Positions 12,626 to 18,354 of a DNA stretch of 28,055 nucleotides are shown piece by piece. The DNA comes from Caldisericota bacterium (GTDB lineage: Bacteria > Caldisericota > JANLFM01): assembly GCA_024655865.1 (NCBI GenBank), contig JANLFM010000017.1, positions 1-28,055 on the forward strand, in the 5' to 3' direction. How positions within the stretch are numbered: the stretch's first letter is position 1; every line of letters starts with the position of its first letter. Under the pieces are notes generated by a model. That model did no database searches and was not told the origin of the DNA. It saw only the letters and a list, made by a program, of their open reading frames with translations. Position numbers and translations under genes: made by a program.

Positions 12626-12691
12626 GGAAATTTTAAAAAATAGTCTCGGTGATTTAGGAATTTCTCAAATCTAATAAAAAGGAGGTTTGAA

Positions 12692-14341
12692 ATGAAGAAG
12701 TTCCTAATTGCTGTTTTAACCTTTGCGCTGCTTTTGCCCCCTGCCATTTTGCCTATTACCGCTGCTACCAGTCTTTCTGATATTTCCGGGCACTGGGCAG
12801 AGCAAACCATTCTCAAATTGGTGGAGAAGAATTACATTTCCGGTTACCCCGATGGCACCTTCAAACCTAACAATACCATTACCAGAGCTGAGTTCGTGAA
12901 GATTTTGACGTCTGTTATGGGTATCGCTCCCGCCACTGGTGGAGAATCCACTTTCTCGGATGTAAACACCTCTGACTGGTTCTTCGGTTATGTGGCTGCT
13001 GCTGTTGAGAAGGGGATTATCGGGGGTTATCCGGATGGCACCTTCAAGCCCAACGATCCCATCACCCGTGAGCAGGCTGCCAAGATTGTGGTGAAGGCCA
13101 AGGGCATTGACGAAACCACGATCGATGCGGAGTTCGTTTTTGCTCACGCTGGAAACTTCGTGGATAAGGATATGATTTCCGATTGGGCCAAGCCCTTTGT
13201 GGCTGCGGCAGTGGAAAAGGGTATCATGAAGGGCGATGCTACTAACGCCTTCCGTCCCACAGACAACATCACCCGCGCGGAAACCGCCGCTATTGCTTAC
13301 CGTGTCATGCCCAAAGCTGGTATCAAGGTTGGTTTAGTTACGGACGTTGGTGGCCGTGGTGATAAGTCCTTCAACGACTCCGCCCTGCGTGGCTTAGAGG
13401 ACTGGGCTGCTGGATGGGCCCTTGAAACTGTTCCTCCTGACCTGGCAAATGTGGGGATTACCTCCCTGGATGTCAACCCCGTAATCGTGGAATCCAAGGC
13501 CAACGAGGACTACGTTCCTAACCTCACCAAGATGGCCGCTGATGAAAAGTGCGACCTGGTAATCGCCGTGGGCTTCATGCTCACAGGGGCCGTTGCTGAG
13601 GTTGCCCCTCAGTTCCCCGATACCAAGTTCATGCTGATTGATGGCGTCCTTACCGATGAAAGCGGAAACGTTATGGACCCCTATCCTCCGAACGTTGTTT
13701 CCTACTCCTTCAAAGAGCATGAGGGATCCTTCCTCGTGGGGGCTATGGCCGGGTACATGACCAAGACCAATATCGTGGGATTCATTGGCGGAATGGAGGT
13801 TCCCCTCATCAAGAAATTTGAAGCCGGGTACCGCGCTGGTGTAATGACTGCCAATCCCGATGCCAAGGTTCTGGTGAACTACACCGGGAACTTCACCTCC
13901 GCCGATGACGGCAAGAAAAACGCCGTTGCCCAATTCGGCCAGAATGCGGACATCATCTACGCCGCTGCTGGTGCCTGCGGAATCGGCGTGATCGAGGCTG
14001 CCAAGGAAAAGGGCGAGGGCTTCTTCGCCATCGGCGTGGACTCCGACCAGGATTACATGGCTCCCGGGCGTGTTTTGACCTCCATGATCAAGCACGTTGA
14101 CCTTTCTGTTTGGCTGGCCTGCAAATCCGTAGTTGATGGAACTTTCAAGAGCGGAATCGTCGAGCTGGGAGTGAAAGAGGGTGGAGTTAACCACAGCTTG
14201 CTCACCTACACCAAGGACATCATTCCCCAGGAAGTTCTGGACAAGATCGCCGCTATCAAGGACATGATCATCAAGGGGACCCTCGTTGTCCCGGATACCC
14301 TGGAGAAGTTAGAGACCTTCAAGGCTCCTACTATTCCGTAA
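12692..14341 (+). CDS. SLH-domain-anchored BMP-family nucleoside-binding protein of an ABC importer
   Basis: A 549-residue exported protein. A signal peptide (1-24, likely cut at ITA-A) has no lipobox Cys. Three S-layer homology domains follow (about 28-75, 87-135, 147-198), with TRAE-type motifs at 64-67, 125-128 (TREQ) and 194-197. Residues ~201-530 are a BMP/PnrA-type binding protein of the kind that captures purine nucleosides: KVGLVTDVGGRGDKSFNDSA at its start, then VGFIGGMEVPLIKKFEAGY and IGVDSDQDYMAPG. BMP proteins are normally lipoproteins; here SLH anchoring to the wall or peptidoglycan replaces the lipid. AAAGGAGG lies six bases before the ATG. A strong terminator follows, then the ATPase and two permeases of the same importer. 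The purine-nucleoside specificity is by family only. Confidence 0.93.
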   Translation: MKKFLIAVLTFALLLPPAILPITAATSLSDISGHWAEQTILKLVEKNYISGYPDGTFKPNNTITRAEFVKILTSVMGIAPATGGESTFSDVNTSDWFFGYVAAAVEKGIIGGYPDGTFKPNDPITREQAAKIVVKAKGIDETTIDAEFVFAHAGNFVDKDMISDWAKPFVAAAVEKGIMKGDATNAFRPTDNITRAETAAIAYRVMPKAGIKVGLVTDVGGRGDKSFNDSALRGLEDWAAGWALETVPPDLANVGITSLDVNPVIVESKANEDYVPNLTKMAADEKCDLVIAVGFMLTGAVAEVAPQFPDTKFMLIDGVLTDESGNVMDPYPPNVVSYSFKEHEGSFLVGAMAGYMTKTNIVGFIGGMEVPLIKKFEAGYRAGVMTANPDAKVLVNYTGNFTSADDGKKNAVAQFGQNADIIYAAAGACGIGVIEAAKEKGEGFFAIGVDSDQDYMAPGRVLTSMIKHVDLSVWLACKSVVDGTFKSGIVELGVKEGGVNHSLLTYTKDIIPQEVLDKIAAIKDMIIKGTLVVPDTLEKLETFKAPTIP

Positions 14342-14355
14342 AACAATGCTTTCTG

Positions 14356-14391
14356 CGGGAGATGGGGGAGACCCCATCTCCCGTTATTTTT
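14356..14391 (+). terminator. Rho-independent-type hairpin between binding protein and ATPase genes
   Basis: A perfect 12-bp stem (CGGGAGATGGGG at 14356-14367 with CCCCATCTCCCG at 14372-14383) and a GAGA loop are followed by TTATTTTT. No promoter is evident between it and the ATPase gene 18 bases later, so read-through probably sets a low level of the membrane parts relative to the abundant binding protein. The stem may also protect the upstream mRNA from 3' decay. Confidence 0.85.
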
Positions 14392-14408
14392 GGAAAAAGA
14401 GGTGATCA

Positions 14409-15938
14409 ATGGCTGCCGTAATCGAGTTAAAAGGAATCACAAAAAGGTTTCCCGGTGTCCTGGCCAATGACCACATTGATCTTGAAATTAACGAACAGGA
14501 AGTTTTTGCTATTGTGGGAGAAAACGGAGCCGGAAAAACCACCTTGATGAACATTATCTATGGTCTATATCAGCCCGATTCCGGAAAAATAATTATCAAG
14601 GGTAAGGAGAGGAAAATCTCTGGCCCCGGCGACGCCATCGCCCTGGGAATTGGGATGGTGCACCAGCACTTTATGCTTGTGCCGGTTTTTACGGTGGCGG
14701 AGAACGTAGTTTTGGGGACCGAACCTACCAAGTACGGGGGAGTCCTTGACCTCGATCGAGCGCGAAGGGAGGTTAAGGAATTTTCGGAAAAATTTGGAAT
14801 GAAGATCGATCCTGACGCTCGGGTGGAGCACATCTCTGTGGGTATGCAACAGCGGGTGGAGATCATTAAAGCCCTTTTTAGAGGAGCAGACATTTTAATT
14901 TTAGATGAGCCTACCGCAGCGCTTACACCCCTTGAGACTCAGGAACTCTTTGAAACTATCCGGTCCCTTAAGGCCCAGGGAAAGACGGTTATTTTTATTT
15001 CTCATAAACTTCAGGAAGTGCTGGCCATTGCTGACCGGATCGCGGTCTTAAGAGGTGGGAAGGCTGTCGGGGTGGTGGATGCCAAATCAGCTACAACGAC
15101 CCAATTAGCGAGGATGATGGTGGGCAGGGACGTAATTCTGGAGTATGAAAAGGGTCCCCCGAAGTTAGGAGATGTTCTGCTTGAGGCCCATAACATTATG
15201 GCTCAAAATGACCGGGGCATTACCACCGTCAAAGGGGTGTCTTTTCACCTACGCTCCGGAGAAATCCTAGGAATCGCTGGGGTAGAGGGAAACGGTCAGA
15301 CTGAGCTGGTGGAAGTGCTTACCGGATTACGGACTCCAATTTCCGGTGAGATCAAGATAAAGGGTAAACTCTTCACTCACCCTGATGCCCGAGCCCTGCG
15401 GGTCTCCGGAATGGCGCACATTCCCTCAGACCGGCATAAACTGGGCCTCGTTTTACCCTTCGATGTTTCTGAAAACCTAATTCTGGGTATGCACAGCTCT
15501 CCTCCTTTCGCCCGAGGGAACGGATTGGACCGAGAAGCCGTTGAGGAATTTGCCAGAAGCAAAGTAATGGAGTTCGATATCCGACCCCATGATCACAGGA
15601 TTAAGGCCGCCAAACTCTCAGGCGGGAATCAGCAAAAGGTGATTGTCGCCCGAGAGATTTCCTCCAAGCCGGAGATCATGATTGCCTCTCAACCCACAAG
15701 GGGGCTGGATATCGGGGCCACCGAGTTCGTGCACAAGCAGCTTTTAAAGGAAAGAGATAACGGAAAAGCGGTGCTTCTGGTTTCCCTGGAGCTTGATGAA
15801 ATTCTTTCCCTTTCTGACAGGATTGCTGTGATGTATGGAGGAGAGATCGTCGCCGCTTTTGACTCCCAAGAAGTTACGGAAGAGGAAATCGGGCTCTACA
15901 TGCTCGGTGTTAAGAAACAGGAGAGCGTTCATGTCTGA
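14409..15938 (+). CDS. ABC transporter ATPase, BMP/Nup (sugar-type, two nucleotide-binding domains)
   Basis: A 509-residue ATPase with two tandem ABC domains, as in RbsA and NupO/BmpB-type importers. Domain 1 has Walker A GENGAGKT (37-44), signature SVGMQQRVEI and Walker B LILDEPTAAL. Domain 2 has a degenerate Walker A (GVEGNGQTE, near 292), signature LSGGNQQK (near 403) and an altered Walker B (IASQPTRGLD), so only one site is likely fully catalytic; this asymmetry is normal for the group. It powers uptake of the ligand caught by the SLH-BMP protein. GAGGTGATC gives a good ribosome site. It overlaps the first permease start by eight bases. Confidence 0.95.
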   Translation: MAAVIELKGITKRFPGVLANDHIDLEINEQEVFAIVGENGAGKTTLMNIIYGLYQPDSGKIIIKGKERKISGPGDAIALGIGMVHQHFMLVPVFTVAENVVLGTEPTKYGGVLDLDRARREVKEFSEKFGMKIDPDARVEHISVGMQQRVEIIKALFRGADILILDEPTAALTPLETQELFETIRSLKAQGKTVIFISHKLQEVLAIADRIAVLRGGKAVGVVDAKSATTTQLARMMVGRDVILEYEKGPPKLGDVLLEAHNIMAQNDRGITTVKGVSFHLRSGEILGIAGVEGNGQTELVEVLTGLRTPISGEIKIKGKLFTHPDARALRVSGMAHIPSDRHKLGLVLPFDVSENLILGMHSSPPFARGNGLDREAVEEFARSKVMEFDIRPHDHRIKAAKLSGGNQQKVIVAREISSKPEIMIASQPTRGLDIGATEFVHKQLLKERDNGKAVLLVSLELDEILSLSDRIAVMYGGEIVAAFDSQEVTEEEIGLYMLGVKKQESVHV

Positions 15939-17247
15939 TAAAAATGGAAATCCCGATAGCACTGCCCTTGCTTACCCCACCTATAAAAGGATCACCTACG
16001 AGCGCATTGTTGATTTTCTAGTTCCCGTCGTATGTATTATCTTAGGATTCCTCGTGGGGATGGTTCTGATTGCAATTGCCGGGAAAAGCCCTTTTGGCGC
16101 ATACTACGCCCTCCTTAAAGGGGCTTTTGGTAGTCTATCCAATATCTCCGAATCCATCCTTAAAGCAGCCATCCTGATGTTTACCGGTTTGTCCGTGGGG
16201 CTTGCCTTCCGTTGCGGTCTTTTCAACATTGGCGCGGAAGGTCAGTTTATGGTGGGGGCGATTTCTGCTGCCTTTATCGGCCACTGGGTTTCCCTCCCTC
16301 CTTACCTGCACATTCCCTTAATCTTCCTTTTTGCAGGGATTACTTCCGGGATCTGGGGATTAATTGCCGGTTGGTTGAAGGTGACCAGGGGAGTGCACGA
16401 GGTCATCTCCACGATCATGCTCAACTGGATTGCATACTACCTGATTCAAAACTGGCTGGTTACCGGACCTATGTCCGTGAAACCTACTGCCTCCACCCAA
16501 ATAGTAGTTTCTGAGGCGGGAACCCCGGGGATTTTATCCTCCGCCAAACTCTGGCGCTTTCTTGCTGAACCTCCCAACGTCGTGGGGAGGTTCGCCCTTC
16601 TTGCTACGATTTTTGTTGCTTCCTTTTTTATTGCGTACCTGATTTTTAAGAGAAGCTCCAGGCTGAGAAAGATTGGCTGGCTTTTTTCCTTGATCATCTC
16701 CGGGGCAGTCACCGGGTTCTCCGGGTACTTTATTTACCAGTGGCATTACGGTATTCCGGGAGTTCGCTTGAACATAGGAATTTTCTTTGCCCTGGCCGCC
16801 GTAGCCTTTGTCTTCTGGCTGCTCTACCGAACCGTGGTGGGTTATGAGATTCGCGCCTCAGGCTACAACCCTCACGCTGCACGCTATGCCGGGATTAACG
16901 TCAAGAAAAGGATCATGCTTTCCATGTTCCTTGCTGGGGCCTTGGCTGGATTCGGAGGGGTTATTATGGTTTGTGGCACGGAATTCAAGTTCCCCGGGGT
17001 TTTCCCAGGGGGCTACGGTTTTGATGGAATTGCTATGGCCCTGATCGGTCAGAACCATCCCATCGGCATTATGCTCTCAGCTACCCTTTTCGGATTCATC
17101 CGAGGAGGAGCTACCGCGATGCAGCTTCCTCCCTTCAAGATTCATAAATCATTCGCCGATATTATTCAGGGCTCCGTCGTGCTCTTTATTGCTGCCTATT
17201 ACATTATCCGCTACCTTTTGATGCTTCCTGCACGGAGAAAGGATTAA
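15931..17247 (+). CDS. ABC importer permease 1 (BPD_transp_2, Nup type) with extra two-helix segment
   Basis: A 438-residue inner-membrane permease of the branched-chain amino acid/ribose/nucleoside superfamily. The motif GLAFRCGLFNIGAEGQFM near 90 and GYEIRASGYNPHAARYAGI near 308 are typical; family members have about 350 residues. The extra length is mainly residues ~219-276: a helix, a basic loop (KRSSRLRK) and a second helix (GWLFSLIISGAVTGFSGYF) just before the last conserved half. The start is the ATG at 15931 with AGGAG upstream, overlapping the ATPase stop; an earlier in-frame ATG lies 96 bases inside the ATPase gene and would add a polar 32-residue tail. Pairs with the permease that begins three bases after its stop. 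Confidence 0.92.
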   Translation: MSDKNGNPDSTALAYPTYKRITYERIVDFLVPVVCIILGFLVGMVLIAIAGKSPFGAYYALLKGAFGSLSNISESILKAAILMFTGLSVGLAFRCGLFNIGAEGQFMVGAISAAFIGHWVSLPPYLHIPLIFLFAGITSGIWGLIAGWLKVTRGVHEVISTIMLNWIAYYLIQNWLVTGPMSVKPTASTQIVVSEAGTPGILSSAKLWRFLAEPPNVVGRFALLATIFVASFFIAYLIFKRSSRLRKIGWLFSLIISGAVTGFSGYFIYQWHYGIPGVRLNIGIFFALAAVAFVFWLLYRTVVGYEIRASGYNPHAARYAGINVKKRIMLSMFLAGALAGFGGVIMVCGTEFKFPGVFPGGYGFDGIAMALIGQNHPIGIMLSATLFGFIRGGATAMQLPPFKIHKSFADIIQGSVVLFIAAYYIIRYLLMLPARRKD

Positions 17248-17250
17248 CTC

Positions 17251-18354
17251 ATGGTTGAGCAGATAATTACTCTCTCTCTGGCTTCCATGCTTCAGTTCGG
17301 TACCCCGATTCTCCTTTCCGCCCTGGGGGGCGTGATCACCGAGAACTCAGGAGTGGTGAACATTGCCCTTGAGGGCTTGATGAGAATGGGCGGGTTCTTT
17401 GCTGTTGTCGGCTCTTACTATTCCGGAAACCCCTGGATCGGTCTCCTTTTAGGAATCGGTGTAGGACTGGTCATGGGCCTTCTTCACGCCTATATTTGCG
17501 TTACCTGGAGAGGGGACCAGATCGTTTATGGCGTAGCGATCAACATTTTCGCCCTGGGCGGAATGACCTACCTTTTGGAGCGCATCTTTAATACCACGGG
17601 CCATTCTCCTTCCGTTCCCTCTTTTGCCCAGGGAGTTAAGCTTTCCCCTGAAGCAGCAAGCTGGCTCCTTTTAGGAATCCTTGTGATTTCATTCTTCTTT
17701 ATCTTTGCTGCCATTTTAAGAAGGAATAGGAGGAAATGGCTCTTCTCTGCACTTGGTGCCCTGATTATCGGCTTCCCGATATCTTACTTCGTTTCCCGGA
17801 TCCCTGTCGTGGCCAGCATTTTCTGGGGGGTCATGAACAAGCAAACTGTCTTTGTCTATTTTGCCCTGGTTATCCCCTTCTTAATGCATTTTCTGCTCTA
17901 TAAGACAAAGTGGGGACTGCGCATTCGAGCTGTGGGTGAGCACCCCAAGGCTGCAGACACTCTGGGGGTAAACATCTACCTCGTGCGCTATCTCTGCGTG
18001 ATGGCCTCCTGTGTCTTAGCAGCGATTTCAGGGGCCTCCATGTCCATCGGACAACTGGATATTTTCGACAACCACATGCCCGCAGGAAAGGGATTCATTG
18101 CCCTGGCGGCTATGATCTTCGGCAAGTGGAAACCCTTGAACACGCTGCTTGCCGTGCTCTTCTTCACCCTTGCTGGAGTAGCGGGAGATGTAATTCAGAG
18201 CCTTACCACGACCTACCCCTGGCTGGCAAACATTCCTCGGGGTTGGCTGGGTTCCCTGCCCTATATCCTTACCCTTCTGGCCCTGGCAGGATTCGTGGGC
18301 AGAGCTGTTGCTCCGGCAGCGGACGGGATTCCTTACGAGAAGGGTGAAAAGTAA
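17251..18354 (+). CDS. ABC importer permease 2 (BPD_transp_2, Nup type) with extra two-helix segment
   Basis: A 367-residue membrane protein forming the second half of the importer channel. ALGGVITENSGVVNIALEGLMRMG at the start and GLRIRAVGEHPKAADTLGV near 226-244 mark the family, whose usual size is about 310. The surplus is residues ~138-190: a helix (WLLLGILVISFFFIFAAIL), a basic loop (RRNRRK) and a helix (WLFSALGALIIGFPISYF), in the same place as the insertion in permease 1 and resembling it. About ten or more membrane helices are expected. It is the last gene of the importer; about 105 bases without a clear terminator separate it from the next ABC system. Confidence 0.92.
   Translation: MVEQIITLSLASMLQFGTPILLSALGGVITENSGVVNIALEGLMRMGGFFAVVGSYYSGNPWIGLLLGIGVGLVMGLLHAYICVTWRGDQIVYGVAINIFALGGMTYLLERIFNTTGHSPSVPSFAQGVKLSPEAASWLLLGILVISFFFIFAAILRRNRRKWLFSALGALIIGFPISYFVSRIPVVASIFWGVMNKQTVFVYFALVIPFLMHFLLYKTKWGLRIRAVGEHPKAADTLGVNIYLVRYLCVMASCVLAAISGASMSIGQLDIFDNHMPAGKGFIALAAMIFGKWKPLNTLLAVLFFTLAGVAGDVIQSLTTTYPWLANIPRGWLGSLPYILTLLALAGFVGRAVAPAADGIPYEKGEK

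Follow-up and report, generated by a model that had tools for sequence, protein, structure and literature searches.

The window, by which we mean the whole 28,055-nucleotide stretch of DNA analyzed here, contains an open reading frame (12692-14341) for a protein of 549 aa, in which a signal peptide leads into three SLH repeats, with a complete BMP (PnrA-type) domain behind them; the protein is referred to below as SLH-BMP (Table 1). Pfam SLH matches the protein in three stretches (3e-49), and Pfam Bmp covers residues 212-535 and positions 2-299 of the 301-position profile (1e-66), with a score of 225 bits vs a curated cut-off of 24.1. No lipobox was found in the whole 549-aa sequence, whose only cysteines are residues 287, 429 and 477; since the first of these is residue 287, there is no lipidation site by the signal peptide. 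The Pfam matches and cysteine positions thus bear out the original prediction of a signal peptide without a lipobox, followed by the three SLH repeats and then by a complete BMP domain, and Pfam likewise places the matching ATPase and two permeases that it had described directly beside the receptor gene (14409-18354). It had also put a linker between the SLH and BMP parts at residues 198-205; a short linker is present, but the predicted structure moves it to about residues 206-211, a length of approximately six residues. As a separate observation, the lipid-type orthologs in the phylum have a loop of about 18 residues behind the first helix of the BMP domain that is missing from SLH-BMP proteins (around 13424-13430). 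Two NCBIfam equivalogs named "putative B6 ABC transporter" (NF047927 and NF047930) were considered and rejected, as the scores fell below their cut-offs (72 bits vs 400 and 476 vs 670).

Table 1. Coordinates of the receptor gene, the importer genes and their features in the window
Feature	Position	Strand	Evidence or remark
Ribosome-binding site AGGAGG, receptor gene	12680-12685	+	Sequence
Signal peptide, about residues 1-25, cysteine-free	12692-12766	+	Sequence
SLH repeat 1 (W35, G51, ITRAE with R65)	12776-12895	+	Pfam SLH 1.5e-15; motif
SLH repeat 2 (W96, G112, ITREQ with R126)	12950-13081	+	Pfam SLH 2.3e-20; motif
SLH repeat 3 (W165, G181, ITRAE with R195)	13157-13288	+	Pfam SLH 1.9e-13; motif
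Linker between SLH repeat 3 and BMP, about 6 residues (206-211)	13307-13324	+	Model: helix 195-205, strand 212-217
BMP (PnrA-type nucleoside-binding) domain	13325-14296	+	Pfam Bmp; structural match with guanosine-bound Lbp, Z 40.4
Terminator-like hairpin (T-rich tail), after receptor gene and before ATPase gene	14355-14392	+	13 pairs; -29.6 kcal/mol, z -5.8
Two-domain ABC ATPase	14409-15938	+	Pfam ABC_tran, two stretches
Permease 1 (BPD_transp_2)	15931-17247	+	Pfam
Extra two-helix segment, permease 1, residues 212-276	16564-16758	+	Absent from lipid-type orthologs; model helices 217-240 and 249-272
Permease 2 (BPD_transp_2)	17251-18354	+	Pfam
Extra two-helix segment, permease 2, residues 126-194	17626-17832	+	Absent from lipid-type orthologs; similar to the permease 1 segment

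Chance or misassembly was rejected as a source of the fusion because the SLH-BMP frame is conserved in relatives and recurs in all five genomes of the window's family. Full-length relatives in two of these (G001 and G004) are 89% and 66% identical over the whole frame, and two more genomes carry the same fusion up to a contig end, where it is broken off. Searching for SLH plus BMP architectures, as had been suggested, therefore gave the five genomes of this one family, but 0/34 among BMP-bearing genomes of other groups, including the SLH-rich Paenibacillus and Cohnella. No SLH extension was present among 80 BMP loci listed from a wider contig scan, and no SLH-BMP was found in viral contigs. 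Two other unusual BMP proteins came to light. In a bin labeled Spirochaetales SZUA-6, a BMP that has no lipobox cysteine (L103:185-1240) clusters within family f2 of the phylum, which would reflect either transfer or a misnamed bin. In addition, a lipoprotein-type polypeptide of 775 aa in G005 (L195:700-3024) has two complete BMP domains in tandem.

AlphaFold modeled the whole SLH-BMP chain at a pLDDT of 93.8 and a pTM of 0.87. The BMP part of the model matches guanosine-bound Lbp from Clostridium thermocellum over 304 residues (rmsd 2.6, 43% identity), followed by BmpD with adenosine (Z 39.1) and PnrA (Z 38.0). Its SFND, GNF, GVD and KHVD positions are invariant in the phylum, and from these conserved positions and the fold the BMP part would be a nucleoside binder. 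The SLH part matches Sap (Z 22.1, 174 residues) and SpaA (Z 20.7, 157 residues), with SpaA in complex with pyruvylated ManNAc among its matches (Z about 20-22). SpaA grips the sugar with a tryptophan and a glycine, and its TRAE arginine forms a pair with the pyruvate (PMC10628300). The same three kinds of residue occur in every SLH repeat of the window's protein (Table 1), paired by motif, not by superposition.

The envelope of the organism bears directly on what such a module could hold. The window's genome encodes one CsaB (TIGR03609, 298 bits vs a cut-off of 213), whose gene adjoins one for a WecG/TagA-family glycosyltransferase, and a pyruvyl transferase is found in 37/41 genomes of the phylum. 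Omp85 is absent from this genome and from 40/41 relatives, LptD is absent from this genome, and four transpeptidase genes are present in it. A diderm setting with a periplasmic, OmpM-like SLH was rejected, given that neither Omp85 nor LptD was detected; the window's protein also differs from OmpM-type outer-membrane tethers in having a BMP domain where OmpM has its barrel. A pyruvylated wall polymer is the most plausible anchor, because CsaB lies beside a TagA-type gene and both Omp85 and LptD are missing. Approximately 30 reading frames of the genome contain SLH, among which L092:8082-9488, L093:1132-2361, L098:1242-2093, L100:295-1188 and L101:1652-2410 were read by eye as M23 peptidase, L,D-transpeptidase or amidase. 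Since several SLH proteins appear to be peptidoglycan enzymes, SLH appears to serve this organism as a general-purpose wall foot. A point against the wall-anchor explanation comes from C. exile, for which the absence of BamA and an envelope resembling an outer membrane, of unclear type, have been reported (PMC4104836), and which probably shares a phylum with the window's organism.

A second, lipidated BMP that serves the window's importer was looked for in the genome, a draft assembly (96% complete), whose single further BMP appears to belong elsewhere. It lies on another contig (C1, L003:9767-10915), has the lipobox LLAFAVTSC, and has an ATPase and two permeases of its own directly behind it, forming a separate complete importer behind genes that read as purine catabolism, adenine deaminase among them. 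It is only distantly related to SLH-BMP (66.6 bits), and we rejected it as the receptor of the window's importer on account of this distance and of its own importer.

SLH-BMP likely serves the adjacent nucleoside-type ABC importer directly, as a non-lipidated receptor whose SLH trimer holds it non-covalently on a pyruvylated wall polymer, in a cell that lacks a BamA-type outer membrane. The protein would be exported without a lipid, its SLH trimer would grip the polymer, a nucleoside would be bound in the BMP cleft, and the receptor would then dock on the two permeases encoded downstream and hand over its cargo. As its own linker is only about six residues long, the reach to the pump would have to come from flexibility of the wall polymer, from a membrane-near position of the polymer, or from an SLH trimer that lets go and binds again. 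The terminator-like hairpin behind the receptor gene would probably leave more receptor than pump; a promoter scan upstream of the receptor gene gave no sigma-70-like site. The original prediction of a wall- or S-layer-held receptor, placed away from the membrane, is thus supported in part: a non-lipidated SLH-BMP lies by its own importer, in a genome with CsaB, many SLH proteins and no Omp85, a wall location is probable, and a position far from the membrane or an altered hand-over is possible. The modeled six-residue linker would give little reach, which counts against direct feeding of the pump, and the short linker together with the conserved pairing with the permeases fits a membrane-near receptor equally well as a distant one.

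Alternatively, SLH-BMP could be a wall-side capture or storage protein that relays nucleosides to a membrane-near receptor, so that the adjacent pump is fed indirectly. Surface scavengers of nutrients held by SLH are known (IlsA and BslK), and two genomes of family f4 carry a BMP with a Cu_amine_oxidN1 domain and a lipidated BMP side by side. However, no partner receptor was found in the draft genome, where the sole other BMP is distant and sits in its own importer, and for this reason we regard a relay as less likely than a direct receptor and give it a rather small chance. It is also conceivable that the SLH part is vestigial and that the protein is merely secreted or a minor component of an S-layer. 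We judge this to be highly improbable, considering that the ligand residues are intact in all repeats and CsaB is present, that the BMP positions are conserved, and that the gene stays with its importer.

Returning to SLH-BMP as a direct receptor, we compared the anchors of its orthologs across the phylum. In families f2, f4 and f5 the orthologs of the window's BMP are mostly lipoproteins, some with a CarboxypepD_reg domain between the lipid and the BMP domain. In one f5 genome (G019) and several f4 genomes the lipid is missing and a Cu_amine_oxidN1 domain precedes BMP; L013:1501-3069 and L031:997-2616 are examples of such orthologs without a lipobox. Importer genes were not seen beside the f4 Cu_amine_oxidN1-BMP on the stretch examined (L084). 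On a midpoint-rooted tree of BMP domains, the SLH proteins form one clade (96/96) and Cu_amine_oxidN1 appears twice, and thus the anchor appears to have changed at least three times. Lipid was probably the older state, considering that it is the commoner one, with the tree rooted at the midpoint only.

SLH-BMP is no lone oddity, as ABC receptors with an SLH foot are frequent in the phylum. SLH and SBP_bac_5 are joined in one frame in at least 26/41 genomes (matches paired by contig and frame), including the window's own genome, where on another contig (C61) an SLH-SBP_bac_5 gene is followed by DppB and DppC and has an SLH module 65% identical to that of SLH-BMP. Because 11 of the 12 inspected copies lie directly before DppB/DppC-like genes of their own (L065:3655-5787; L067-L074, L076 and L080), an SLH receptor beside its own pump is a repeated arrangement. 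For the twelfth, on a 4-kb contig (L066), DppB/DppC were not detected in the 1.6 kb downstream. The SLH modules of the two receptor types (window 12692-13318 vs L065, L068 and L069) do not form two clades; in genus g2 they pair with one another (99/98) and not with their g1 counterparts. This fits an SLH module that was exchanged between receptor genes, or one that was acquired repeatedly. One further fusion was seen, in G033 (L075:1591-3612), combining SLH with a PBP_like_2 domain of the tungstate- or phosphate-binding type. A candidate SLH receptor from G056 was discarded, as it is not an SBP and is a protein with other repeats.

The permeases of the window's importer have a peculiarity of their own, an extra segment of about 65 residues at homologous places in both proteins, which occurs in 5/5 genomes of the SLH-BMP family (in three of the five, the permeases lie on a different contig than the receptor and were assigned by orthology). 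In permease 1 it was modeled as two membrane-length helices at a pLDDT of about 75-80. The two segments resemble each other, with a score of 55 vs 34 and 31 for the best matches elsewhere, and 0.15% of shuffles scored as high. The f2 and f5 permease orthologs lack the segment, as do the permeases of the lipid-BMP importer in the window's genome, and for the f4 orthologs the coordinates of the matches allow no more than a short insert at that place. One could read this as an extension of the direct-receptor explanation, in which ABC receptors of the phylum repeatedly swapped lipid for wall-directed feet (SLH or Cu_amine_oxidN1) and the importer of the window's family was remodeled, the helical hairpin common to both permeases being an adaptation to the wall-held receptor, for example a docking platform. 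The occurrence in both permeases of every SLH-BMP genome, the absence from lipid-type importers and the mutual similarity of the segments speak for such an adaptation. Against it, the permeases of G019 lack the segment though their Cu_amine_oxidN1 receptor is also lipid-free, the DppB and DppC proteins beside SLH-SBP_bac_5 are of ordinary length, and the receptor and permeases are on different contigs in three genomes. As one clade represents one event, the link between segment and SLH anchoring is only a correlation, and we regard the docking platform as doubtful.

In relation to described proteins, SLH-BMP combines familiar parts. It resembles PnrA, BmpD and Lbp (PF02608) in its BMP fold (Z 38-40 over 300 residues, 31-43% identity) and in the ATPase and two permeases alongside; however, the described members are lipoproteins or periplasmic, while the window's receptor has three SLH repeats and no lipid. 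It also departs from the lipoprotein receptor of a single-membrane ABC importer in lacking the lipobox cysteine. With IlsA and BslK, the haem binders of the Bacillus cereus group, it shares a nutrient-binding domain kept at the cell surface by SLH repeats, although theirs is a NEAT haem domain and does not serve a neighboring ABC importer as its substrate-binding protein. The S-layer proteins Sap and SpaA share the SLH trimer fold and the ligand residues, and CsaB is encoded in the window's genome, but SLH-BMP has no S-layer lattice domain and has a transport receptor in its place. Closest in arrangement are the SLH-SBP_bac_5 receptors of the same phylum (such as L065:3655-5787), in which an SLH foot (module up to 65% identical) also replaces the lipid and the importer also lies alongside; these differ in being peptide-type receptors with DppBC-type permeases that lack the extra hairpins, and no description of them was found in the literature either. 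Searches for SLH together with solute-, substrate- or oligopeptide-binding terms, in chiefly open-access literature, turned up no ABC receptor described as SLH-anchored. SLH-anchored nutrient binders and the SLH and BMP modules are already known, and what appears to be new, as we found no report of it, is the SLH foot on the receptor of an ABC importer.

The general view of single-membrane bacteria is that an ABC importer receptor must carry a lipid to remain close to its pump. A wall-held receptor raises the question of how its cargo reaches a pump in the membrane. The phylum offers a ready comparison set, since one orthologous receptor occurs in it with lipid, Cu_amine_oxidN1 and SLH feet. 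With a wall-binding foot and a linker of about six residues, and with such feet on more than one type of importer, the nearness required between receptor and pump and the hand-over of cargo would be testable by foot swapping.
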